From: Paracoccus lutimaris
Lineage (GTDB): Bacteria > Pseudomonadota > Alphaproteobacteria > Rhodobacterales > Rhodobacteraceae
Reading direction: 5' to 3'
DNA length: 64,000 nucleotides
Assembly (NCBI RefSeq): GCF_003337565.1
Contig: NZ_QPJL01000001.1
Coordinates: 1 to 64,000 of the forward strand
Made by a program: the position numbers and the translations under genes. The notes under the pieces were generated by a model. It was not told the DNA's origin. It worked only from the letters and a program-made list of their open reading frames with translations, and made no database searches. Every line of letters starts with the position of its first letter. The stretch's first letter is position 1. Below, in pieces: positions 1 to 9,988 of this stretch.

Positions 1-95
1 ACTAGCATTGACGCCATCATAACACGCAGAACATAACCACTGGGTGGGTCAGTTCTCGGTGACAATGCCGGGTCAAATCTCAGTGGCAATCAACA
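1..95. mobile_element. Terminal fragment of a probable IS21-family insertion sequence
   Basis: Two 21-bp direct repeats (46-66 and 70-90) match at 17 of 21 positions and both have the form GGGTCA...TCTC.GTG.CAAT. The second runs into CAATCAACA at 87-95, which on the minus strand reads TGTTGATTG. Tandem subterminal repeats next to a TG...CA tip are typical of IS21-family (istA/istB) ends, from memory of the family. The prohead protease frame runs rightward-to-leftward into this tip and stops 21 bases later. Only the end is in the window; no transposase is visible, so the family call is an inference. Confidence 0.55.
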
Positions 96-357
96 CGACA
101 AGCTGCCCACCTTCCATCCGGTGCCCGGTGACAGTGCCGATAACGTCGCGGGCAGAACCTTGGCGGTGCCCGTCCAGGACGGGTGCGCCCACCAGCCGCG
201 ACAGGTCTAGTCCGGCAGGGTCCAGCCGTTCGACATAGGCCCCGCGCGCATCGCGCCGGGTCACATCGGCAAAGGTCGAAATGACGGCATCAACCGTCAG
301 CCCCTCGGCATTGAAGGACTCGGGTTGGAAATCGGCGGCGCGGTGAAGCATGTTCAT
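73..357 (-). pseudogene. Truncated phage prohead protease (HK97/S78-like)
   Basis: The frame gives about 87 phage-like residues and then a short tail encoded by the IS-like end, closing at a TGA at 73-75. The preserved part contains APVLDGHR, which resembles the catalytic-His region of caudoviral prohead proteases, followed by a DVIGTVTGHR stretch typical of the early beta strands. Families of this type are usually about 150-250 residues, so the catalytic core is lost. The start at 357 is chosen because AAAGAGGA lies 6 bases upstream; the frame is also open further upstream. It follows the portal gene in the usual head-module order. Capsid maturation would not be possible from this copy. Confidence 0.6.
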
Positions 358-468
358 TTGGAATCCTCTTTCGTTTCGGTTTCCCAAGGGGCTTTCGGCA
401 GGGTCACGGGTCTGTCGCTTTCGTTCGACAGGGCGCGTGACCATCCCTTGCGCCATTGGGGGCTTTTC

Positions 469-1809
469 TCAGGCTTCATCGGTGCCCTTCCGCCCGCCCT
501 CGGCGGCAATTTCCGCGTCAAGGTCATCGAGGTTCCAGCCGCGTTCCGCGACCGCCTTGCGGCGCGAGGTCAGCCCGGCTTCCAGTTCGGCAACCGTCGC
601 TTGAATGTCTTTGAGCGGGTCGACTTGCAGCGGGCGGGGCGGCAACCAGTCGGCAGTCAGATAGGCAGCCGGGTTGCGCTCGAAATCCGGTGCATCCAAC
701 TCGCCCGACAGGACGCCATGCGCGATGACCTTGCGCCAGACGGGCGCGAGAAACTGCGGAACAAGGGTGCCATACTGAATCTGTTCAACGCGGGTGCGGA
801 AGGGCAGCAGCCCCGCGCGCAAGCTGGAATAGTTCGCCCCTGTTAGATCGCCGGAAAGCAGGTGATCGGGCAGCCCAAGGCCAGCCGCGAGTTGCCGCAG
901 ATTCAGTTTCAGGAAGGCTTCAACCTGTTGCAGTTGTCCCGGCGTATTGAATTTTACGTCCTGCCCGACGCCAAGCCGCCGCAGCGCGCCCGGTTCAAGG
1001 CTCACGTCGCCCGAGTCGTCATAGGCATCGGTCGACGTTCCGTTCATGTCGGTGATAAAGCCGGTATGCATCGCCGCGACCTTGGCCCCGACAAGCAGCG
1101 CATCGCAGAGTTGATCGAAGTCGCCAGCGGGAAGGATCACAGGGGCCAGCCAGCTAACCCCACGCACCTGCCCCGGTGCCAGTGGCTTGAAGACATGCAG
1201 CACGGAACCGGCATCAACCCGGACGCTTTGCGATTGGGCGAAAAGGTTGCCGGGCTTCTCGGGCACGATCCAATAGGCCAGCCGCTTGCCGTTCGGGTCC
1301 AGTTCCACGCCCGAATAGATCGAACGCCCTTCCGACAGTTCGCCGGTCTTGGACTCGTCCAGAAGATCGGCAGGAATGATCCGCAGGCGCGGCCCGTCTT
1401 CGGTTTCGAGGATTAGCGCGACCGCTTCGCCCGCCTTGACCATCGAGTCAGCAAGAATTGCCTGCATCCCCCAAAAGTCAGTGCGGCACTCACTGTCAGC
1501 AGCGCCAGCCCATCCCTCAAAGTATCCATTGATCGCTTTCCGCTGAGCCGGGTCCGGGTGTTTCGAGGTTGGCACGATCCCGGCCCCGACAAGAGCGCCG
1601 GTCCAGTTGGCACAAGCCTGCGAAATCCACGGATTGTTCATCGCCAGATAGGACGCCCGCGACCGCAGCGACGGTGCAGCCGCCGCAACCTCGGGATTGA
1701 TCCGCCCGAATTGCCCCATGCCAGAGGCGCGACGGCCCCCGGCTGCCCCGTCAAAGCTGCGAACGCGGGCAGGTTCGGCCTTGCGCTTGAAGAGGTCCAG
1801 CACGCCCAA
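469..1809 (-). CDS. Phage portal protein, lambda gpB-type
   Basis: 446 residues. The N-terminal third has the family pattern of a short basic start, then a stretch of invariant small residues and the segment YLAMNNPWISQACANW seen in lambda-type portals, followed by GxGIVP. Portal dodecamers form the DNA entry vertex of the head and dock terminase and prohead. The gene lies between the 189-residue protein and the prohead protease, on the same strand as the terminase, as expected for a head module. Length is close to the family norm and no internal stop is seen, so it appears intact although the protease after it is broken. Confidence 0.88.
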   Translation of the reverse strand: MGVLDLFKRKAEPARVRSFDGAAGGRRASGMGQFGRINPEVAAAAPSLRSRASYLAMNNPWISQACANWTGALVGAGIVPTSKHPDPAQRKAINGYFEGWAGAADSECRTDFWGMQAILADSMVKAGEAVALILETEDGPRLRIIPADLLDESKTGELSEGRSIYSGVELDPNGKRLAYWIVPEKPGNLFAQSQSVRVDAGSVLHVFKPLAPGQVRGVSWLAPVILPAGDFDQLCDALLVGAKVAAMHTGFITDMNGTSTDAYDDSGDVSLEPGALRRLGVGQDVKFNTPGQLQQVEAFLKLNLRQLAAGLGLPDHLLSGDLTGANYSSLRAGLLPFRTRVEQIQYGTLVPQFLAPVWRKVIAHGVLSGELDAPDFERNPAAYLTADWLPPRPLQVDPLKDIQATVAELEAGLTSRRKAVAERGWNLDDLDAEIAAEGGRKGTDEA

Positions 1810-1811
1810 GA

Positions 1812-2381
1812 TCAGGACTCCACCTTCTTGCGCCGTTCGATTTCAGCGAAGATCGGCTGGCAAATGTTGGTAAACATGATCGTCGAGACGGCTTCAAAGC
1901 TACCAGCGTAGTCATATTCAAAGCCATCAGGCGGTGGCGCGAGCCAATCCGGCGCGCTTCCGTGCCTGCCATTGATTGCCCAATGTCCACTGAAATCGAG
2001 TTCGCCGTCGACGCGAAGCTGTCCGATCTGGAAAACCCACTTGTCGGTGCCCACTGCAAGCGCAGCAATGGCATGGTGCAGGCCGCGTTCGACCTGCTTG
2101 CTGTCAGGGTAGACTTCCCGTGACTCGCTACGCATCTGAGAGTCGAACTTGGCCAATGCTTCGGCTGCGAAGCCGTTGTCGAGGGCGGCAAGCAGCATCC
2201 TGGCGCGATAGATTTCATCTTGCGGGAACAGCAGTGCACCTTTCTTGCCGTAGATGTCAGGAACGGCGGTAAGAATGTTGCGTCCCGCAAGGCCCTTGAG
2301 TTGGTTGAAAACCTTCTCTTCGGCGCGCTTCTCTGACGTAGCGATGATGTTCGCCATGTCCCGCAGGGTGATCGTGTTCAT
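1812..2381 (-). CDS. Phage-borne protein of unknown function, possible moron
   Basis: 189 residues, no domain recognised, no signal peptide or membrane segment. A strong ribosome site (AAAGGAGA) lies 8 bases before the ATG. It starts with a short helical segment (TLRDMANIIATSEKRAEEK) and has a Trp/Tyr-rich C-terminal half. It occupies the place between terminase and portal where lambda-like phages carry a small head-tail joining gene, but it is much larger and not recognisable as gpW. The gene and its AT-rich upstream region (about 2400-2490) are visibly less GC-rich than the flanking phage genes, so it may be an accessory moron with its own promoter. It ends 2 bases before the portal start. 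Confidence 0.55.
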   Translation of the reverse strand: MNTITLRDMANIIATSEKRAEEKVFNQLKGLAGRNILTAVPDIYGKKGALLFPQDEIYRARMLLAALDNGFAAEALAKFDSQMRSESREVYPDSKQVERGLHHAIAALAVGTDKWVFQIGQLRVDGELDFSGHWAINGRHGSAPDWLAPPPDGFEYDYAGSFEAVSTIMFTNICQPIFAEIERRKKVES

Positions 2382-2591
2382 GGTCTAGGTCTCCTTTATC
2401 TTGCCTACCTTCTACATCGGAATTGACGATTCTGCAAGATCAAAGATTCCACTAGAATTATTAATTCCTCTATGGCATACAGGTGCCACAGATGTTGATG
2501 AGCCATCGAATCGGGGCGGGTGCGCTCGGCCCGATTCAACAGACAGGATTCGCGCGTTCCGGGTTTCTCCACCCAAGAGTTGCGCGCGGAT

Positions 2592-2660
2592 AGCCGGGGT
2601 TTGTTCCTTTACCCGGCTTGAAGGGCGGCAGGTCGTCGGGTTCCTGCCGCCCCTTTTATT
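2592..2660 (+). terminator. Two successive hairpins ending in a T-rich tail
   Basis: Hairpin 1 pairs AGCCGGG (2592-2598) with CCCGGCT (2612-2618). Hairpin 2 pairs GGGCGGCAGG (2623-2632) with CCTGCCGCCC (2643-2652) over a 10-base loop, then CTTTTATT. The second is a good intrinsic terminator on the plus strand. No gene was recognised immediately upstream on that strand, so it could close an unrecognised transcript or small RNA starting in 2400-2590, or end read-through. Confidence 0.6.
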
Positions 2661-2675
2661 GAAAGGAGTCAGATC

Positions 2676-2846
2676 ATGCGAAAATTGACCACTGCCGAAC
2701 TGCGCAGCGTCCGAACGCTGGCCACGATCTTGACCGAAAGCGAGCTGTCCTATGAGGGGACCGCGTTCATTGTCGGGATGCGCCTCAAGTTCCTTGGGGC
2801 GTTCTCGATTGCCAACCTTGAGCGGGTCTTCCAGGTGAAGGCGTAA
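2676..2846 (+). CDS. Small phage protein, 56 residues, unknown
   Basis: An open frame of 56 codons from ATG to TAA, with GAAAGGAG placed 7 bases before the start. Composition is ordinary for a folded mini-protein (MRKLTTAELRSVRTLATIL as the first helix, then a short hydrophobic second half). It starts 16 bases after the double hairpin and runs opposite to the head genes, like the next two small genes. No family is recognised. The ribosome site is the main support; codon use is compatible with expression. Confidence 0.45.
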   Translation: MRKLTTAELRSVRTLATILTESELSYEGTAFIVGMRLKFLGAFSIANLERVFQVKA

Positions 2847-2887
2847 AAGCACTCCTGGCGTGAATTGCACGCCAGAAGTGACAATTT

Positions 2888-2905
2888 ATATTGTAAAAAC
2901 AATAT
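2888..2905. promoter_or_regulatory. Perfect 7-bp inverted repeat, candidate operator
   Basis: ATATTGT (2888-2894) and ACAATAT (2899-2905) are separated by AAAA. The palindrome ends 1 base before the -35 box of the promoter that follows, a common position for a repressor or activator site. No regulator gene was identified nearby. Confidence 0.45.
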
Positions 2906-2906
2906 A

Positions 2907-2934
2907 TTGACTCGTTTTCTGGTCGGCGTATGGT
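2907..2934 (+). promoter_or_regulatory. Sigma-70-type promoter for the small phage operon
   Basis: TTGACT (2907-2912) and TATGGT (2929-2934) are 16 bases apart, with an AT-rich upstream stretch. It points to the 58- and 73-residue genes that begin at 2964. Confidence 0.55.
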
Positions 2935-2963
2935 CGACTCAGGTTCAACCAAAGGAGTCGACC
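2932..2963 (+). promoter_or_regulatory. Inverted repeat enclosing the ribosome site of the 58-residue gene
   Basis: GGTCGACTC (2932-2940) is perfectly complementary to GAGTCGACC (2955-2963), which contains part of the Shine-Dalgarno AAAGGAG and ends at the ATG. In RNA this would hide the ribosome site in a 9-bp hairpin; in DNA it could be an operator overlapping the start point. Confidence 0.4.
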
Positions 2964-3140
2964 ATGACCTATGACCAACAATGCCAATACGGCCGCGAAA
3001 TCGCCGCAAGCGCCGTGGCGGAATGCCTTGAAACCGGCAACCAGCCCAAGTTGGTGCGCAAGATTCGTGACATGGCCGGACAGAATACCGGCGTTTCCAT
3101 CGGCTTCCTGCACTCGATTGCGGAACGGGTGGCGAAGTGA
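2964..3140 (+). CDS. Small phage protein, 58 residues, unknown
   Basis: MTYDQQCQYGREIAASAV begins a mostly helical 58-residue protein ending ...IAERVAK. The start is set by AAAGGAG 6 bases upstream. It has its own promoter and overlaps the next gene by four bases (ATGA), so the two are co-translated. The cassette runs against the terminase gene and ends inside its last codons. This layout fits a small accessory or regulatory phage cassette, but no family was recognised and no helix-turn-helix is evident. Confidence 0.55.
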   Translation: MTYDQQCQYGREIAASAVAECLETGNQPKLVRKIRDMAGQNTGVSIGFLHSIAERVAK

Positions 3141-3358
3141 ACGATCCGCTGGAAGAATCGAAACAGCAGGGGCGCGAAGGTGCCGCGCGGATCATTGCTG
3201 ACTTTGTTGAAGCCAGCAAAACCGACTATGAGGAAGCGGTTCAAATCGCCGTAGAGGCAATAAGAACCGCCGCGCTGAACAACATCAAATCTAACTATCA
3301 CTTGATTGAAGCCGTCATGGCAATGGCCGCGCTTGGGTGGGAAAAGCCTACCGATTGA
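3137..3358 (+). CDS. Small phage protein, 73 residues, unknown
   Basis: An acidic helical protein (MNDPLEESKQQGREGAAR at the start) with no recognised domain, second gene of the small plus-strand operon by ATGA overlap. Its 3' end overlaps the 3' end of the terminase large-subunit gene by 11 bases in convergent orientation. GC content is lower than in the terminase gene, as for its partner. Confidence 0.5.
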   Translation: MNDPLEESKQQGREGAARIIADFVEASKTDYEEAVQIAVEAIRTAALNNIKSNYHLIEAVMAMAALGWEKPTD

Positions 3359-5129
3359 GCCAAGACGATTTGACCACGGCAGATTTCTTGATCGGCGCGG
3401 CGGGGGATGACAGTTCGTCTTCGCGCCGATCCAAGTTCAGCGCCAGCGCGTAACCGGCTGCCAGCCCATAGACCAGACAGTCAAGCGCCTCTGCCCGGCG
3501 TCCGGGGATGCGCTCGAACCGCCGCACGGGTGCCCCGCGCACATACCGGATGACCTGCCGTTCCGCTGCCACCTGTTCATAATAGGCGGTGGGCAGATCG
3601 CGGCTGAATCGGATCGTGTTGCCGCGCGTCAGCCGTTGCAGGATTTGGCTCTTGAGACCATCAACCCCGATGATGAACAGCGGAACGCCCTTCGCGCTCG
3701 ATCGCGTCAGCGGCGGGCGGTTGCCACTGGCCCCTTTCCCTGCCAGCACCTTGCGACCGAACCGGGGCTTGCAGAAGTCATAGACGCGCTGAGTCCATGT
3801 GCCATCGCCACTGTCGATCACGCAGGCGTCCAGTTTCAGGGTGCCGCCCTTGGGATGCGCCCACGTGCTTTTCAACAGGTCATCGAGTTCGGACCATGTG
3901 GAGTCGTCACCGGGGCTGCCCCAGATGATCGAGTGCCCCAGCACAAGCGCGGCGTCCCGCGTATGCCCAATGAAGCTGATTTCCAAGCGGTCATGCTGCA
4001 CGTCGCAGCCCGCCGTGACAAACAGCACCTCGGGCGGGATATTGGTCAGCCCGAAATCTTCGGCACGGGATTCCAGTTCGCCGGAGTCGGCTTCCTCTGC
4101 CGCTTCCCGCCAGCCTTGGGCAAGGATCGTGTTCACGAATACCTGCAACGTGTCGGGTTGCCCCTTGGCTGCAAGCCACTCGGCCGCAAGTTTCGCCCAT
4201 GAGGCATTCGCTAAGCCCGAGACAAGCGCATTGAGCCGGAATCCGGCGTGGCCCTTGATCTCGGGACGGGTGATGCGCCAGACTCCTTGCGCCACCATCG
4301 CGGGTTTGTGCCGTTCGCTGACAAGGGACTCGCAATGCGGGCAGCGGAAGGCAGCCGTTTCCGGCTTGTCCGGTTCCCATTCGATATGCCCCCACTGAAT
4401 TTCGGTGAAGGCCCCGCATTCGGGGCAGGGCACTTCAAAGATGCGTTGATCGCTCAGCCGGTAAGAGCGCAGCACGTTCGAGGTTTCTTCAATCGTCGGG
4501 GTGCTGCCCAGGATGATCTTGCGATTAGCGAAGCTGAGGGTGCGCTTTTCCGCGAGGATCAGCGGCGAACCTTCCGCCGTGGTTTCCATCCCGTCGACTT
4601 CATCCATCAGCAGGACTCGGACGTTGTGCCTTCTAAGGTTGCGGGGTGCCTTCGCCGCCACGATCTTGAGCGAACCGCCCGCGAAGCGGCGCGACAGCAG
4701 CGTATTGCGCCCGGCATCATCAGCCTCAGCCGAAAGCAGCCCGGACAAGGCCGGGGTCGCCTCAAAGATCGGTTCAACGTCGCTGACCATGTAATCCCGG
4801 CAATCGGCCTCGGTGGGCAGCAAGAGCAAGATCGGGGAAGGTTCATTGGCGACATAGGACGCAAGCGCGCCGGTCAGCAGAGTCGAGAAGCCCACGCGCA
4901 CCGGCTTAACAATGGTCACACGCTCGATTTTCGGGTCGCTGATAGCGTCAGCTATGCCGCGTTGATACGGCCACAGGCGAACGCGCCCAGGCGTTGCAGA
5001 AACACCCTCGGGCAGCCGCATTTGGGCTTCCATCCACTCGCCCAAGGATAGGCGCGGCGGTGGCGTCAGCGCGGCCAAGGCGTTGCGGCGGGTCCGTTGC
5101 AGGGCAGCTTGGGTATCAGGATGCAGCAT
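3348..5129 (-). CDS. Terminase large subunit, lambda gpA family
   Basis: 593 residues from the chosen start. The N-terminal ATPase has the deviant Walker A of lambda gpA, KPVRVGFSTLL with the Lys at residue 75 (compare KSARVGYSK in lambda), and Walker B VLLMDEVDG at about 172-180. Two CxxC pairs (CPEC and CPHC, about residues 245-275) could bind zinc. The C-terminal half carries VTAGCDVQHDRLEI, typical of the nuclease domain start. With the small subunit it cuts and packages phage DNA into the prohead. The ATG at 5129 is preferred because it overlaps the end of the small-subunit gene by only 14 bases; the frame is open further upstream. Appears intact. Confidence 0.9.
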   Translation of the reverse strand: MLHPDTQAALQRTRRNALAALTPPPRLSLGEWMEAQMRLPEGVSATPGRVRLWPYQRGIADAISDPKIERVTIVKPVRVGFSTLLTGALASYVANEPSPILLLLPTEADCRDYMVSDVEPIFEATPALSGLLSAEADDAGRNTLLSRRFAGGSLKIVAAKAPRNLRRHNVRVLLMDEVDGMETTAEGSPLILAEKRTLSFANRKIILGSTPTIEETSNVLRSYRLSDQRIFEVPCPECGAFTEIQWGHIEWEPDKPETAAFRCPHCESLVSERHKPAMVAQGVWRITRPEIKGHAGFRLNALVSGLANASWAKLAAEWLAAKGQPDTLQVFVNTILAQGWREAAEEADSGELESRAEDFGLTNIPPEVLFVTAGCDVQHDRLEISFIGHTRDAALVLGHSIIWGSPGDDSTWSELDDLLKSTWAHPKGGTLKLDACVIDSGDGTWTQRVYDFCKPRFGRKVLAGKGASGNRPPLTRSSAKGVPLFIIGVDGLKSQILQRLTRGNTIRFSRDLPTAYYEQVAAERQVIRYVRGAPVRRFERIPGRRAEALDCLVYGLAAGYALALNLDRREDELSSPAAPIKKSAVVKSSWLNR

Positions 5130-5637
5130 CTTCGCCCCCTGCCAGTTCGGCCAGCACAGCCCGGATTTCGAGGTCCATTTCGCTGAGGTCATGCGCGCTC
5201 AGGTGGCCAAGGCGCGCGGAAACCCGGCTTGGCACGGCCAGCAACCCGGCCCGAACGGTTCGCAGGATTCCAGCCCATTCGGATGCAACCGCAGAGGCAG
5301 GCATCAACTCGCCTCGGGCAGCGGCGTTCTGAATTTCGATCTTCTGCGCCGCCGCTTCCGTCTGCCTTAACTTCGCAGCCTTCATTTCATCCGTGACCGG
5401 CCCGGCCTTAACTGCGCCGTCCCTCAGCCGAGAAAGGTAGGCAGCAAGGGACGCCCGCACATCGAACCGGCCCCGGCTGACCTTCACAAGATGACCGTCG
5501 CGCGCAAGGGTGCGCACTCGGCTTGTGCCGATCCCAAGGAAGGTTGCAATTTCTGCCTCGGTCATGGTGCCGGGGATAGGGACGCCGGTTTCGAGGTCCA
5601 AGAGGTCATCGAGATTGGTTTCAGATTGGGTCAGCAT
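5116..5637 (-). CDS. Terminase small subunit, Nu1-like
   Basis: 173 residues. A helix-turn-helix near residues 25-47 (MTEAEIATFLGIGTSRVRTL) resembles the Nu1-type winged helix that recognises the packaging site. A charged coiled region rich in Glu/Lys/Arg follows, then a C-terminal helical part expected to contact the large subunit. It lies immediately upstream of, and overlaps, the large-subunit gene, the standard packaging gene pair. The start ATG at 5637 has AAAGGTAAACC upstream, an adequate ribosome site. Confidence 0.82.
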   Translation of the reverse strand: MLTQSETNLDDLLDLETGVPIPGTMTEAEIATFLGIGTSRVRTLARDGHLVKVSRGRFDVRASLAAYLSRLRDGAVKAGPVTDEMKAAKLRQTEAAAQKIEIQNAAARGELMPASAVASEWAGILRTVRAGLLAVPSRVSARLGHLSAHDLSEMDLEIRAVLAELAGGEDAAS

Positions 5638-6116
5638 GGTTTACCTTTCGGCCTCACGAATCAATTTTTCTTGTCAAGAGCGTTTTTTCGGGGGTCGGTG
5701 CCCCCGCGGGTGCCACCCCTAGGGAAGAACCTATGATCGGTTGCAGCCCATCTTGCCGCGTCCAACCTGTCCAACCGGCGTCCAACCGGCGTCCAACCGG
5801 CGTCCAACCTCAGCGTCTCGCAACCCATTGGAATCGTTGACACGTCCAACCTGTCCAACCTGTCCAACCAGTTTTGACTCGGTGGCGTCCCATGCTGCGC
5901 ACGGTGCTACCCGCTGCCCTTCCGCTCTGTCACGCCTCACCTTCCCGAACGAATGCAGAAATAGGTTGGACAGGTTGGACAGGTTGGACGGGGCATTGAT
6001 TTCATTGGGCTTTTCGCGTCCAACCTGCCACTCAGCGGCAAGGCTAGGTTGGACAGGTTGGACCGCGTTCAAGGCAAATGAGCTGCAATCAATCTGAGAA
6101 GATGGAACAGAAACGA
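5638..6116. repeat. Iteron-rich gap, probable phage replication origin (repeats 5761-6062)
   Basis: This 479-bp gap holds 14 copies of TCCAACC or its complement GGTTGGA. Forward copies start at 5761, 5770, 5781, 5792, 5803, 5845, 5854, 5863 and 6019; inverted copies start at 5964, 5973, 5982, 6047 and 6056. Spacing is 9 or 11 bases within groups. Such clustered, phased short repeats beside a phage primase-helicase gene are what iteron origins of P4-like elements look like. The left part (5638-5750) shows no gene. Frames open through the repeats encode only low-complexity residues and are not called. Confidence 0.6.
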
Positions 6117-8405
6117 TCATTGATCCCACTCCATTTCCCCACCGATATGAGCGGCGAAGGTGGCGCGGCACTCTGCCAAAGGCGGCAGGATGTATTGCCG
6201 CACTCGCTGACCTGAGACACTGCCCCGCTTATCTTCCAATCCGCTGCAAATGGCCCTGAGCGTCTTGCCGAAAACGTCGACCGACACGGCATTCCCATGC
6301 CAGCGGCGCGCGGCAAGCCATTCCTCATAGTCGCGCCGCAGATAGTCGCGGGAAACGGTGATCGCTTCACGTTCCCAAGCCGGTTCGTCATCATCGAAGC
6401 CGTCACCAGCCCCGTGCCGCAGGTCGCCTTCGGAAAGCCGGTCAAACCACCAGGCTTCCACATTGCGCAGCCCCTCAACTTTCTGTCGCGTCAGCGCAGC
6501 CGTCTCGGGCGGGTTGCGCACATCGAAGCCGCTCAGATCGAACGATTGCAGGAAGTGCAGCAGCGCGCCCGCGCCGCCGTTCGCCTGTTCCTTCCAGATC
6601 GCCCCGAAATAGGCAGTGTCCTTCGCATGGGCAGGCGACACGTCCAGCACGAAAAACCGCCGTTCGCCCGGTGTCGCTGGCACAACCCAATCGGCATTGG
6701 ATGTAATCAGCAACCGCCCGAAATGGTCGATCTTGTAAGGGTCAATGCCCTTGCGCTCGATTTCGAGGGACTGGCAGGTGATGAGGTTTTTCAGGACGCC
6801 TTCCGCCGCATGGTTCCCGGCCCAATAGCCTTCCTCAAGGTGAATCAGGATTGCCGTTTCCATGTGCGCATTGAAGCGCCCGGTGAGGTGTTCCGGCTGC
6901 GAAAGGGTGACATGGTGGCGCGGGAACAGCGCCCCGAGATAATGGCCCACGGTATCCTCGCCCGCGCCTTTCGCGCCGCGCAGCACAACCGCCGTGCCGG
7001 GCTTTTGCTCGGGATGCTGCACAAGATGCGCCATCCATCCCAAGAGCCATTGGAATTCCCGTTCGCTGCCATCGCAGATTACGTCCCGCACATGGGCAAG
7101 GAACAGGTCGCAGGAAGCGTCCGGGTTCGGCTGCACGGCCCATCCGCGCCAGACGTTATAAGCCCCGGCTGGCGTTTCTTTGGGATTGAACACCAAGCCG
7201 CCCCGATACTCTCGCCGCTGAGGATGACGCATCCAAGCCGCCGTGATCGGTTCGGTTCGATTTGTGCCCGAGACCTTTACCCGCCTATTGGCATTCATTT
7301 TGTGCAGTTCGGTGTCGTTAAAAACCTCATACTCGCCGCCGTTCTCAATGATGATCCGAAACTTGCCCCCGATCATCACGGCGGCATGATCCCGGTTCAA
7401 CGCGGTGACAGGGTTGCGTTTGCTCGCCTCAGGCAGATCGTCCATGTCATCGAAATCGTCCATCACGGTCGACAGGTCTTCGCCCGCGTTTCGATCCCAA
7501 GCCCGCTGCACCTGCCGCGCATCCTTGGCCCATTTGGCAAGGTCAGGGTCTTTCGCCAGTTCCGCCTTGAAGGCGTCCAGGTCCAGCCCCGCGCGGCGGC
7601 ACTCGCCCGCGATGCGGAAGGCGCGGCCCGATCTCGATTCATCCTTGGGCGCGGTTGCCGGTTCCTCGCCCTTGAAGCGCGGCCCTGCATCGGTGATGAG
7701 CCATTCCAGCGCCGCCCGGTCGACCGTCTCGATAGTCGCGGGCGCGGAGTCGAGGCGCTGCCCGGTCACGGTGAAATAGCGGTTGCCCAGATGCAGGGCG
7801 ATTTCATGGTGACTGCCGCGCGAAAACGACTTGCCCCATTTCGTGCCCATGATCGCCCGCAAGGGTTCCAGATCGGCGGCACGGTAGGCAAAGAAGACCT
7901 TGGCCCCGGTGCCGCTCGGGCTGACTTCGGCATAGGACGGGAAGCGCGCCAGCACTTCGGCTGCCCACGGTTCCAGATCGCCAAGCAGCCCAAGGCAGGA
8001 GTCGAGGTCAATCCCGCCGAACCGCAGATCGCCCGCGCCGCCAAGGAACAGCCCTACGCCCTTGAGGCGTTCCGCTGGCAGATCGGCGGCAACCGCGTCA
8101 GCGCGCGTCCGGGCCAGCCAGGTGGCAGGATCGTTCGCCCGCGCCATGCGCTGAGGCGTTGAATAGGGAACCTTGGTCCATCTTTCGCCCCGGCGTTCTT
8201 CCCGCCATGCGCACCACTGAGGCGCGGCGTCCAGCGCAGCCCATGCTTGATTTTCGGGGCTGGATTCAGTATCCTTCTCACAGGCGATTTTGTGAGCCGC
8301 CGATGATTCAACGCCGCTGCGGGGACCAGCCGCAGCGGCGTTTTCCTTATCTGGTGGCGTCCATTCGAACAGGTCGCTGAGGTCGGTGGAAGTGAGGTCT
8401 TTCAC
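6117..8405 (-). CDS. Phage primase-polymerase/helicase (DUF5906-like), Walker A Lys replaced by Glu
   Basis: 762 residues. The N-terminal part has archaeo-eukaryotic primase signatures: GIDLDSC with acidic pair D133/D135, and SPSGTGAK at about 162-169. The C-terminal half is an SF3-like helicase: Walker A region VLRGAKGAGEDTVG (about 474-487) and an acidic Walker B-like segment ILIHLEEG near 520. In this family the loop normally reads GxxGxGK; here the codon is GAG, giving Glu483 in place of Lys. That change should impair ATP binding. The protein is otherwise full length without stops. It would initiate replication at the repeat cluster just downstream of its 3' end. Function from family features is an inference. 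Confidence 0.8.
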   Translation of the reverse strand: MKDLTSTDLSDLFEWTPPDKENAAAAGPRSGVESSAAHKIACEKDTESSPENQAWAALDAAPQWCAWREERRGERWTKVPYSTPQRMARANDPATWLARTRADAVAADLPAERLKGVGLFLGGAGDLRFGGIDLDSCLGLLGDLEPWAAEVLARFPSYAEVSPSGTGAKVFFAYRAADLEPLRAIMGTKWGKSFSRGSHHEIALHLGNRYFTVTGQRLDSAPATIETVDRAALEWLITDAGPRFKGEEPATAPKDESRSGRAFRIAGECRRAGLDLDAFKAELAKDPDLAKWAKDARQVQRAWDRNAGEDLSTVMDDFDDMDDLPEASKRNPVTALNRDHAAVMIGGKFRIIIENGGEYEVFNDTELHKMNANRRVKVSGTNRTEPITAAWMRHPQRREYRGGLVFNPKETPAGAYNVWRGWAVQPNPDASCDLFLAHVRDVICDGSEREFQWLLGWMAHLVQHPEQKPGTAVVLRGAKGAGEDTVGHYLGALFPRHHVTLSQPEHLTGRFNAHMETAILIHLEEGYWAGNHAAEGVLKNLITCQSLEIERKGIDPYKIDHFGRLLITSNADWVVPATPGERRFFVLDVSPAHAKDTAYFGAIWKEQANGGAGALLHFLQSFDLSGFDVRNPPETAALTRQKVEGLRNVEAWWFDRLSEGDLRHGAGDGFDDDEPAWEREAITVSRDYLRRDYEEWLAARRWHGNAVSVDVFGKTLRAICSGLEDKRGSVSGQRVRQYILPPLAECRATFAAHIGGEMEWDQ

Positions 8406-8497
8406 AATGCAGTTCCTTCATCGAAGGCCCCGCAAGGGTTGACAGATCGGAAGAATATTCAGGAATTTCAACGGAACGATTCCGGCGGGGTTTACAG

Positions 8498-8521
8498 AAC
8501 AAGCGATTGATTTTGCTTGTT
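8498..8521. promoter_or_regulatory. Inverted repeat upstream of the primase gene, candidate operator
   Basis: AACAAGC (8498-8504) and GCTTGTT (8515-8521) form a perfect 7-bp inverted repeat with a 10-base spacer, about 95 bases upstream of the primase start. Position and size fit a phage repressor operator. The 8406-8677 gap otherwise shows no gene and must contain the prophage right boundary, which I could not place. Confidence 0.35.
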
Positions 8522-8633
8522 TGCGTCACTCCAGGGTCGCCCACCATCCCCCAAAATCCGGACGAACCCTGGTGCTGATCGATGGTGCGATGCCCGTCGA
8601 TATGATGCGCCCTATCCGGTGGCGGATATGGAA

Positions 8634-8655
8634 ATGGCGGGCCGTCGCCCGCCAT
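8634..8655 (-). terminator. Hairpin after the fatty-acid transporter gene
   Basis: ATGGCGGGC (8634-8642) pairs with GCCCGCCAT (8647-8655) around a 4-base loop, 23 bases past the stop codon. On the minus strand it is followed by only a short T run (TTTCC), so it is a weak or Rho-assisted terminator. Confidence 0.5.
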
Positions 8656-8677
8656 CTCTCTGCTCAGCCTTGTCCGG

Positions 8678-9988
8678 TCACAGCAGCAGAAGGCCTGCGC
8701 CGATCACCATGCCGGTCACCAGCAGCATGACCACGCAATAGCCCATGATGTCGCGCGCCTTCAGCCCGGCAATGCCCAGCATCGGCAGTGCCCAGAAGGG
8801 TTGCAGCAGGTTGGTCCAGGCATCGCCCCAGGCCACCCCCATGGCGACGCGGGGCATGTCGGCGCCAATCGCCTCGGCCGCAGGCAGCATCACCGGGGCC
8901 TGTACCGCCCATTGCCCTCCGCCCGAGGGCACGAAGATATTGACGATGCCGCCGGCGATGAAGCTCCAGAAAGGCAGGGTCGCGGCGGTCGAGATCGAGG
9001 CGAAGAACTCGGACAGGCTGGTCGCCAGGCCCGATCCGGTCATGATCGCCATGATCCCGGCATAGAACGGGAACTGGATCACGATACCCGCACCGCCCCG
9101 GACCGCCTGATCCAGCGAGGCCAGCAGGCTGCGCGCGGTGCCATGCAGCACGATACCCAGAAACAGGAAGATCGTGTTGACGACATTCAGGTTCAGCGCG
9201 CCGCCGCCACTGAAATGCAGGACCAGCCAGATCAGGCCCGGAATGCCCACGGCCCACATCAGGATACGGCTGTTCTCCAGCCGCTGCGCCGGGGTCGGAT
9301 GCTCGGGCATCGGCTCGTCCGGGGCATCGCGCAGCTTGGCTGGGTCGACGATGACCATCTCGTGGTCCTCGGGCAGCATCATGCGGTTGGCGATGGGAAT
9401 GGCGATGAACAGGCCCGCACAGATCGCGAGATTCCAATAGGAAAAGATCGTCGCCGAGGTCGGGATGATGCCGATCTGGCTTTCGGTGAAATGACCGGGG
9501 GTCGAGATGGTCAGCGGGATCGAGCCGGAAATCCCGCCATGCCAGATCACGAAACCGGAATAGGCGGCGGCAACCAGCAACCGGTAGTCAACGCGGATAT
9601 GGCGTGCCAGTTCGCGGGCAAAGATCGCGCCGACGACCAGGCCAAAGCCCCAGTTCAGCCAGCTGGCGACCAGCGACACGACCGAGACCAGCAGGATTGC
9701 CGAGCCGGGTGACGTGGCCAGCCCCGCCATCCGCGCCAGAGCCGCCTTGACCGGGGGCGAGCTGGCCAGAATGTAGCCGGTGACCAGAACCAGCAGCATC
9801 TGCATCGAGAACTCCAGCAGCTTCCAGAACCCGTCGCCCCACATGCGGATGACGGCGATCGGGCTGTTGGCCTCGAATATCATGGCGCAAAGGGCGGCAA
9901 TGATCGTCAAGACCAGCACGAAGATGAAGGCATCGGGCAACCAGCGTTCCATGAGCCGAGTGGCCGGGCGGGATAAGGCGCGCAACAT
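8678..9988 (-). CDS. atoE: Short-chain fatty acid transporter, AtoE family
   Basis: 436 residues, a multi-spanning inner membrane protein with about ten hydrophobic helices. Family-typical segments are visible: LPDAFIFVLVLTIIAA in the first helix region, LNWGFGLVVGAIFARE, and YSGFVIWHGGISGSIPLTI. AtoE-type carriers take up short-chain fatty acids such as butyrate or acetoacetate. The start at 9988 follows GAGGAGA at good distance; a longer in-frame extension upstream lacks a hydrophobic or conserved character. It is a single gene between the prophage remnant and pckA. The substrate is inferred from the family only. Confidence 0.85.
   Translation of the reverse strand: MLRALSRPATRLMERWLPDAFIFVLVLTIIAALCAMIFEANSPIAVIRMWGDGFWKLLEFSMQMLLVLVTGYILASSPPVKAALARMAGLATSPGSAILLVSVVSLVASWLNWGFGLVVGAIFARELARHIRVDYRLLVAAAYSGFVIWHGGISGSIPLTISTPGHFTESQIGIIPTSATIFSYWNLAICAGLFIAIPIANRMMLPEDHEMVIVDPAKLRDAPDEPMPEHPTPAQRLENSRILMWAVGIPGLIWLVLHFSGGGALNLNVVNTIFLFLGIVLHGTARSLLASLDQAVRGGAGIVIQFPFYAGIMAIMTGSGLATSLSEFFASISTAATLPFWSFIAGGIVNIFVPSGGGQWAVQAPVMLPAAEAIGADMPRVAMGVAWGDAWTNLLQPFWALPMLGIAGLKARDIMGYCVVMLLVTGMVIGAGLLLL

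Follow-up and report, generated by a model that had tools for sequence, protein, structure and literature searches.

The DNA analysed here is the first 64,000 nucleotides of contig NZ_QPJL01000001.1 of Paracoccus lutimaris (hereafter the window), and its subject is an array of short repeats on both strands at 5760..6063, between the 3' end of a primase-helicase gene and a small terminase gene. The primase-helicase (6117..8405, minus strand; 762 amino acids, aa), which is proposed below as the initiator, matches DUF5906 (Pfam PF19263) with 74.1 bits against a curated cut-off of 27.6. PHROG DNA primase families cover both halves of the protein and DUF5906 lies in its helicase part, which points to a fused primase and SF3 helicase. 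On the minus strand, between 8.4 and 0.5 kb, the order is primase-helicase, array, small terminase subunit (terS, 5116..5637), large terminase (3348-5192) and portal (469-1809); terS, the next gene after the array here, is not a constant neighbour of such arrays. This phage gene order, together with the start of the window at base 1 of its contig, indicates a prophage cut by the contig end. At 8405-8678 the primase gene adjoins a gene for a short-chain fatty acid transporter that looks chromosomal; no integrase separates the two, and the border of the prophage therefore seems to be located there.

A first-pass annotation, made from the letters alone, had described fourteen TCCAACC copies, nine forward and five inverted, at 5761-6062 beside a phage primase gene, with 9- and 11-base steps and a central strand switch. 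These coordinates and steps proved exact, and the array lies on the 3' side of the gene. The exact word occurs 15 times on both strands of the window, 14 times in this interval, with plus-strand starts at 5761, 5770, 5781, 5792, 5803, 5845, 5854, 5863 and 6019 and minus-strand starts at 5964, 5973, 5982, 6047 and 6056. In 100 dinucleotide shuffles of the whole window it occurred 6.25 times on average (maximum 13), which gives an expectation of about 0.03 copies for 302 bp. The true repeat unit is longer, GTCCAACC and mostly GTCCAACCT, and fourteen such units make up the array. The first lies 54 bp past the primase stop, which places the iterons directly downstream of the initiator helicase gene, and the layout in the primase sense, start to start, is + 9 + 30 - 35 + 9 + 9 + 103 - 9 - 9 - 42 - 11 - 11 - 11 - 9 -.

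The array is composed of two facing halves. The primase-near half has an outer pair of units at a 9-bp step (6046..6063, minus strand), a single inverted unit (6018..6025, plus strand) and an inner triplet with 9-bp steps that points to the centre (5963..5989, minus strand); an AT-rich element (5993..6015; AT 0.61 compared with 0.39 in 1-8405) separates the single unit from the triplet. A central spacer with 0.40 AT (5870..5963) separates it from the far half, which opens with a facing inner triplet, again with 9-bp steps (5844..5870, plus strand). The matching place of the far half holds an AT-richer stretch (5821..5842, 0.55 AT) that is alike in close relatives, and is followed by an outer group of five plus-strand units with 11-, 11-, 11- and 9-bp steps (5760..5809).

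Similar arrays occur behind many homologous primase-helicases. The DUF5906-type sample comprised the best 80 of 117 genome-contig loci and the best 80 of 324 viral-contig loci, chosen irrespective of arrays; 14 of the 160 were dropped (no stop, short flank or duplicate) and one further region was untestable, which left 145. The VapE-like sample comprised the best 80 of 592 loci, of which 7 were dropped. Because the best-scoring loci were kept, these samples lean to closer relatives. Alignment A2 holds eleven homologues and leaves out L019 and L026, which aligned poorly. An array was called where the commonest 7-mer on either strand had at least five copies, was two-stranded and found no equal among 100 shuffles, which preserved base composition only. 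Arrays in relatives came to light only in this kind of search, for which no word is set beforehand. By this test, the 600 bp that follow the stop hold a two-stranded array in 72 of the 145 homologues, compared with 4/138 in the 5' flank, 3/146 in the last 600 nt of the gene and 3/132 in a stretch 1.5 kb beyond. The protein-first sample of VapE-like helicases gave 39/73 against 1/73 and 5/69 in controls; five of these 39 arrays use the nearly palindromic GCGCGCC and may be low complexity, and 34/73 remain without them. An earlier set of 46 matches, many from the same family, showed the same trend with quite different words (e.g., CCTCCAA, GACCCCA, ATCGACA).

The link also holds when the search starts from the repeats. 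Among 72 viral stretches with GTCCAACCT twice in tandem, the 3' end of a primase-like open reading frame (ORF) adjoins 35 of the 44 two-stranded arrays with at least five sites, 4 of the 8 arrays with fewer than five and 1 of the 20 one-stranded repeats; because some array loci had gone into the ORF profile, the count is biased towards the link. Counting the window protein, 34 of 41 primase-like ORFs by arrays match the VapE-like model and 30 match DUF5906, many of them both. Most arrays come from alphaproteobacteria, and loci titled Nitrosomonas, Crenothrix, Desulfonema and a planctomycete metagenome-assembled genome (MAG) contribute one case each; the closest titled primase homologues among the best 80 of 117 genome loci belong to Paracoccus and a Rhodobacterales MAG. 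The top match in the phage collection, from a Rhizobium phage, has a gene rather than an array directly after the primase.

Close relatives illustrate what is constant at this locus. A second primase homologue, 81% identical, occurs in the same genome (L044; contig C8, 76000-95000). Directly 3' of it, GTCCAAGCG-type units form an array that uses both strands; an integrase-like fragment precedes this primase, and a DNA invertase and a DNA methyltransferase come after it. On a viral contig (L043), a primase 85% identical to that of the window is followed by GTCCAAGTG units and then by terS. The array thus stays with the primase across these three loci, while the neighbouring gene differs, as do the final three bases of the word. 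The tandem words of the window and of L044 each occur only at their own locus in their own assembly. Two related initiators with different words therefore share one cell. A Paracoccus relative (L233), 87% identical over part of the primase, has units that are worn 3' of position 1327, with four exact copies of its best word, possibly a decaying or changing origin.

A common geometry can be recognized across arrays with different words. With > and < for units on the two strands, the tendency is, start to start, [>> <] 35 [> 9 > 9 >] 64-133 [< 9 < 9 <] 35 [> <<]. Facing inner runs occur in 41 of 60 arrays with a registered word, and their 82 halves contain, with at most one mismatch per site, six sites in 45 cases, five in 16, four in 9, three in 5, two in 1, seven in 5 and eight in 1; six plus six sites are found in 16 of the 41. 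Exact-word runs are present in 34 of 74 arrays, and inner runs are aimed at the centre in 25 of the 26 that can be oriented. The stretch between the single inverted site and the triplet is AT-rich: over 50 halves of 35 arrays its AT content is 0.57 against 0.40 in the central spacer, and it is higher in 42 of the 50 halves (p 5.8e-8).

Which part of the protein might read the word was addressed by comparing word similarity with identity in protein windows, holding the identity of the rest constant. The hand-registered set had 60 arrays; the other 14 of 74, with an unclear register or too mixed a base, were restored in a registration-free run. Residues 680-745 (codons at 6171..6368, minus strand) gave partial correlations with the word of 0.25 (60 arrays) and 0.22 (74 arrays), reached in 0 of 300 permutations each, whereas windows within residues 340-600 ranged from -0.14 to 0.05 in both runs. 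Among the flanking windows, residues 600-640 and 640-680 both gave 0.11 in the 60-array run (27/300 and 14/300 permutations), and in the 74-array run 640-680 gave 0.16 (0/300) and 580-640 gave -0.02. At the level of single residues, residue 710 goes with base 7 of the unit: 24 of 30 arrays with C there have Thr, and 12 of 19 with G have Glu or Ala. When sister pairs matched for helicase identity (0.67 and 0.72) were compared, residue 710 differed in 19 of 20 pairs in which base 7 is different and in 8 of 25 in which it is the same, the best of 2526 column-by-position tests. Nine of the twelve tests below 0.01 fall at residues from 680 on, a region with 19% of the tests. Word similarity thus tracks the C-terminal domain of the primase and not residues 340-600. 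The N-terminal part of the primase-helicase, which the first-pass annotation had put forward as the binder, is an unlikely candidate because the co-variation maps to the C-terminus. Arrays are also present at ORFs that start inside the analysed DNA and have no N-terminal primase part (L053, L092, L269, L292), which would speak against the N-terminus as reader.

Structure models suggest what this C-terminal domain could be. Mean pLDDT was 88 for the helicase plus C-terminus and 85 for the C-terminus alone, and the modelled C-terminus has a strand, two helices, a beta wing and a last helix, the arrangement of a winged helix. Residue 710 opens the second helix, and residues 725 and 736 lie in wing strands. 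Against known structures, the C-terminal model matched RFX-DBD on DNA (Z 7.5), RFX5 (Z 7.0) and, in fourth place, the P4 origin-binding domain (1ka8, Z 5.7); many other winged helices score close behind or tied with 1ka8, and such Z values alone are no proof of kinship. A sequence profile of the C-terminus gave E 0.001 for RFX5 and E 1.1 for 1ka8. Foldseek placed the helicase part closest to the hexameric C-terminal region of NrS-1 polymerase, followed by African swine fever virus PrimPol, SaPI5 PriRep1 and poxvirus E5.

Because arrays lie at the 3' end of the gene far above controls, their words track the C-terminal domain and the predicted fold resembles the P4 origin-binding domain, the array is most probably where replication of the prophage starts, an origin to which the adjoining primase-helicase binds with its C-terminal winged-helix domain. 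The first-pass proposal that the repeats are sites of a replication initiator and mark an origin is thus favoured by sequence comparison. In the mechanism that we envisage, monomers would bind the words through the winged helix, as co-variation and fold suggest, and each half-array, ideally with six sites, would recruit one hexamer of the SF3-type helicase, as the site counts suggest. The facing halves could then load two rings head to head, which would leave in both directions; this double-hexamer loading step has somewhat better than an even chance of being right. Base composition suggests that strand opening may take place at, or next to, the AT-rich element in each half, after which the fused primase part would start synthesis. 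The words would drift jointly with the domain that reads them, so that cross-reaction between related elements in one cell would not be inevitable. Whether a single origin design is common to many temperate phages and integrated elements is, in our judgement, evenly balanced. Such a design would have two facing six-site halves, each loading one DUF5906- or VapE-like ring at an AT-rich entry; word and winged helix would change together under a base-residue code, several elements could live in one cell, and the VapE-like 'virulence-associated' helicases would be origin-specific initiators.

Phage P4 offers the closest comparison. Its alpha protein is also a fused primase-SF3 helicase that matches DUF5906 (2.5e-9), and the likeness of its origin-binding domain to the window C-terminal model is accompanied by likenesses in the DNA: P4 has short units on both strands, the six type-1 repeats of ori1 follow the order ++-+++ in the alpha sense, which is the strand order of the primase-near half in the window, and crr lies directly 3' of alpha, as the window array lies 3' of the primase. 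P4 differs in its word, TGTTCACC, in the division of sites between ori1 and crr about 4.5 kb apart, where the window tandem word is confined to one place in its own assembly, and in its AT-rich gap (35 bp, 83% AT), which lies between >> and <, whereas the window element lies between < and >>>. Alpha also has Toprim and zinc-ribbon parts that Pfam did not find in the window protein. Initiators of staphylococcal elements are described in passages of PMC7581432 as having C-terminal recognition, a downstream origin and apparently two hexamers, so on that account the principle is already known. SaPI Rep and SCCmec Cch2 resemble the window system in the iterons directly downstream of the initiator helicase gene, and SaPI5 PriRep1 is among the structural matches; their helicase sequences and hosts are different, and SaPI origins were compared by description only. 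In pRN1, the origin lies downstream of ORF904, a primase-SF3 helicase-winged-helix gene, and passages of PMC4234260 describe it as a 100-nt stem-loop without iterons, whereas the window has repeated units at fixed steps. NrS-1 polymerase, the best structural match of the helicase part, has a tail that aligns weakly with the window C-terminus (Z 4.5); passages of PMC7102993 report that it forms hexameric rings and describe its origin as uncertain. No literature on the origins of DUF5906 or VapE-like phages was found in a search that lay outside most subscription journals, so that its absence is not proven. What looks new is the occurrence across both DUF5906 and VapE-like elements, the arrangement of six plus six sites and the co-variation, although P4 and SaPI origins work alike.

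Several observations weigh against reading the array as an origin of this kind. The expectation that the repeat would recur near homologous primases was borne out in place and not in word: close relatives carry an array of another word in the same position, but the exact word GTCCAACCNGTCCAACC is present in 1 of 295 family genomes, the window's own, and absent in 294, and no array was detected in 73 of the 145 homologues, many of them among L345-L390 (including L384). Nineteen of the 60 registered arrays have no facing runs. The window array itself has six plus eight sites, its primase-near half being canonical while the 11-bp steps replace the far outer group, which is thereby at odds with the common layout (> then <<). 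Nor is the central spacer AT-rich, and mirror symmetry of single arrays is weak (mean 0.70 against 0.52 with shuffled strands; 4/44 significant). In the co-variation data, raw counts tie residues 725 and 736 strongly to base 5, but the sister pairs show no clear link (10/16 against 9/26 for 725, 9/16 against 9/26 for 736), an unfiltered information scan ranks some helicase columns high, with 8 of the top 20 in residues 640-762 (111 of 428 columns), and residue 710 of the window protein is Asp, a minority residue for its word. All samples include near relatives, and permutations correct for descent only in part. No DnaA box was found at 5600-6200, and guanine-cytosine (GC) skew over 1-16 kb has no clear switch at the array and a low point at 8.5-9 kb.

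The alternative that survives best, still an unlikely one, is a control region, in which the repeats would serve as operators or as copy-number (incompatibility) sites by which the primase restrains either itself or the genes behind them, with the origin elsewhere. Plasmid iterons serve copy control too, and the array stands directly before the terS gene in the window. The P4 arrangement, with crr 3' of alpha and ori1 distant, means that a 3' array could be crr-like rather than a start point. However, the array lies behind and not before the primase gene, its downstream neighbour varies, and the tandem word was found at no second place in its own assembly, in which the prophage is cut by the contig end and a second site may have been lost.

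A packaging site is considerably less probable. Terminase-bound repeats occur near terS in some phages, and packaging could start at the repeats here since terS is the next gene both in the window and in L043. Against this, the L044 array stands behind a primase with no terminase among nine ORFs scanned in its 19-kb stretch, where the nearest recognized downstream gene is the DNA invertase. Likewise, among 72 mechanically chosen next ORFs (the first of at least 90 aa with a start codon beyond the array, some of which may not be genes), the terS families phrog_57 and phrog_141 match 6 and 2 and five other terS families match one each. The repeat word, moreover, tracks the C-terminus of the primase, the protein in which co-variation was examined.

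Recognition of a structure rather than of a word is more doubtful again. In a pRN1-like origin the facing halves would form a cruciform, and the window arms (51 nt, 84% complementary, 84 nt apart) would allow this; passages of PMC4234260 propose a stem-loop 3' of such replication genes. Three-unit runs at 9-bp steps and the co-variation of word and protein point instead to reading of the sequence. A small gene can hardly be credited: the frame that begins at an ATGA overlapping the stop of the primase gene crosses the array uninterrupted in three loci, with an ORF of 129 aa in the window, 143 aa in L043 and 263 aa in L044 and with similar first codons, but it ends after 56 aa in L233, has no Pfam match and, over 352 aligned bases, shows 34, 41 and 31 window-L043 differences at codon positions 1, 2 and 3 without a third-position excess, so it is taken as not coding, and the conserved coding frame that the first-pass annotation had regarded as fatal to its proposal is not there.

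If the array is the prophage origin read by its primase-helicase, many temperate phages and integrated elements would gain an origin that sequence alone suffices to find; the initiators of these elements bear no annotation beyond DUF5906, VapE-like, primase or, in some phage records, integrase. The recurring six-plus-six layout with changing words would make the counting of initiator rings onto DNA directly testable. Co-variation would supply naturally matched proteins and DNA words from which a winged-helix code could be worked out, and would help to explain how two related elements coexist in a single cell, as they do here. In alphaproteobacteria, compact origins that bring their own initiator might also be put to use as tools.

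Some further observations concern the homologues and their repeats. A third, distant primase-like place in the same genome (L045; G000:C21:4522-4890) contains an internal stop. Locus L034 has a GGACAGA array of 8 copies on both strands around the 5' rather than the 3' side of its primase homologue, and at L048:1971-2241 a primase-like ORF has an 11-unit array within its stop-to-stop frame; the gene may thus end before the array or continue across it. A scan of viral contigs for GTCCAAN3 x3 returned, among the matches listed, many one-strand repeats unlike the two-strand arrays; these GTCCAA-based repeats with three-base spacers (GTCCAACAG, GTCCAATAG, GTCCAAGGT; viral loci such as L078, L104, L125 and L139) are probably repeats in coding sequence. 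The label 'integrase' on primase-helicase homologues in phage records (e.g., H4, H5, H41) is probably a naming error. Finally, L043, L044 and L234 share with the window (6084-6120) a conserved stretch of some 35 nt that immediately follows the stop of the primase gene and starts with the ATGA overlap.
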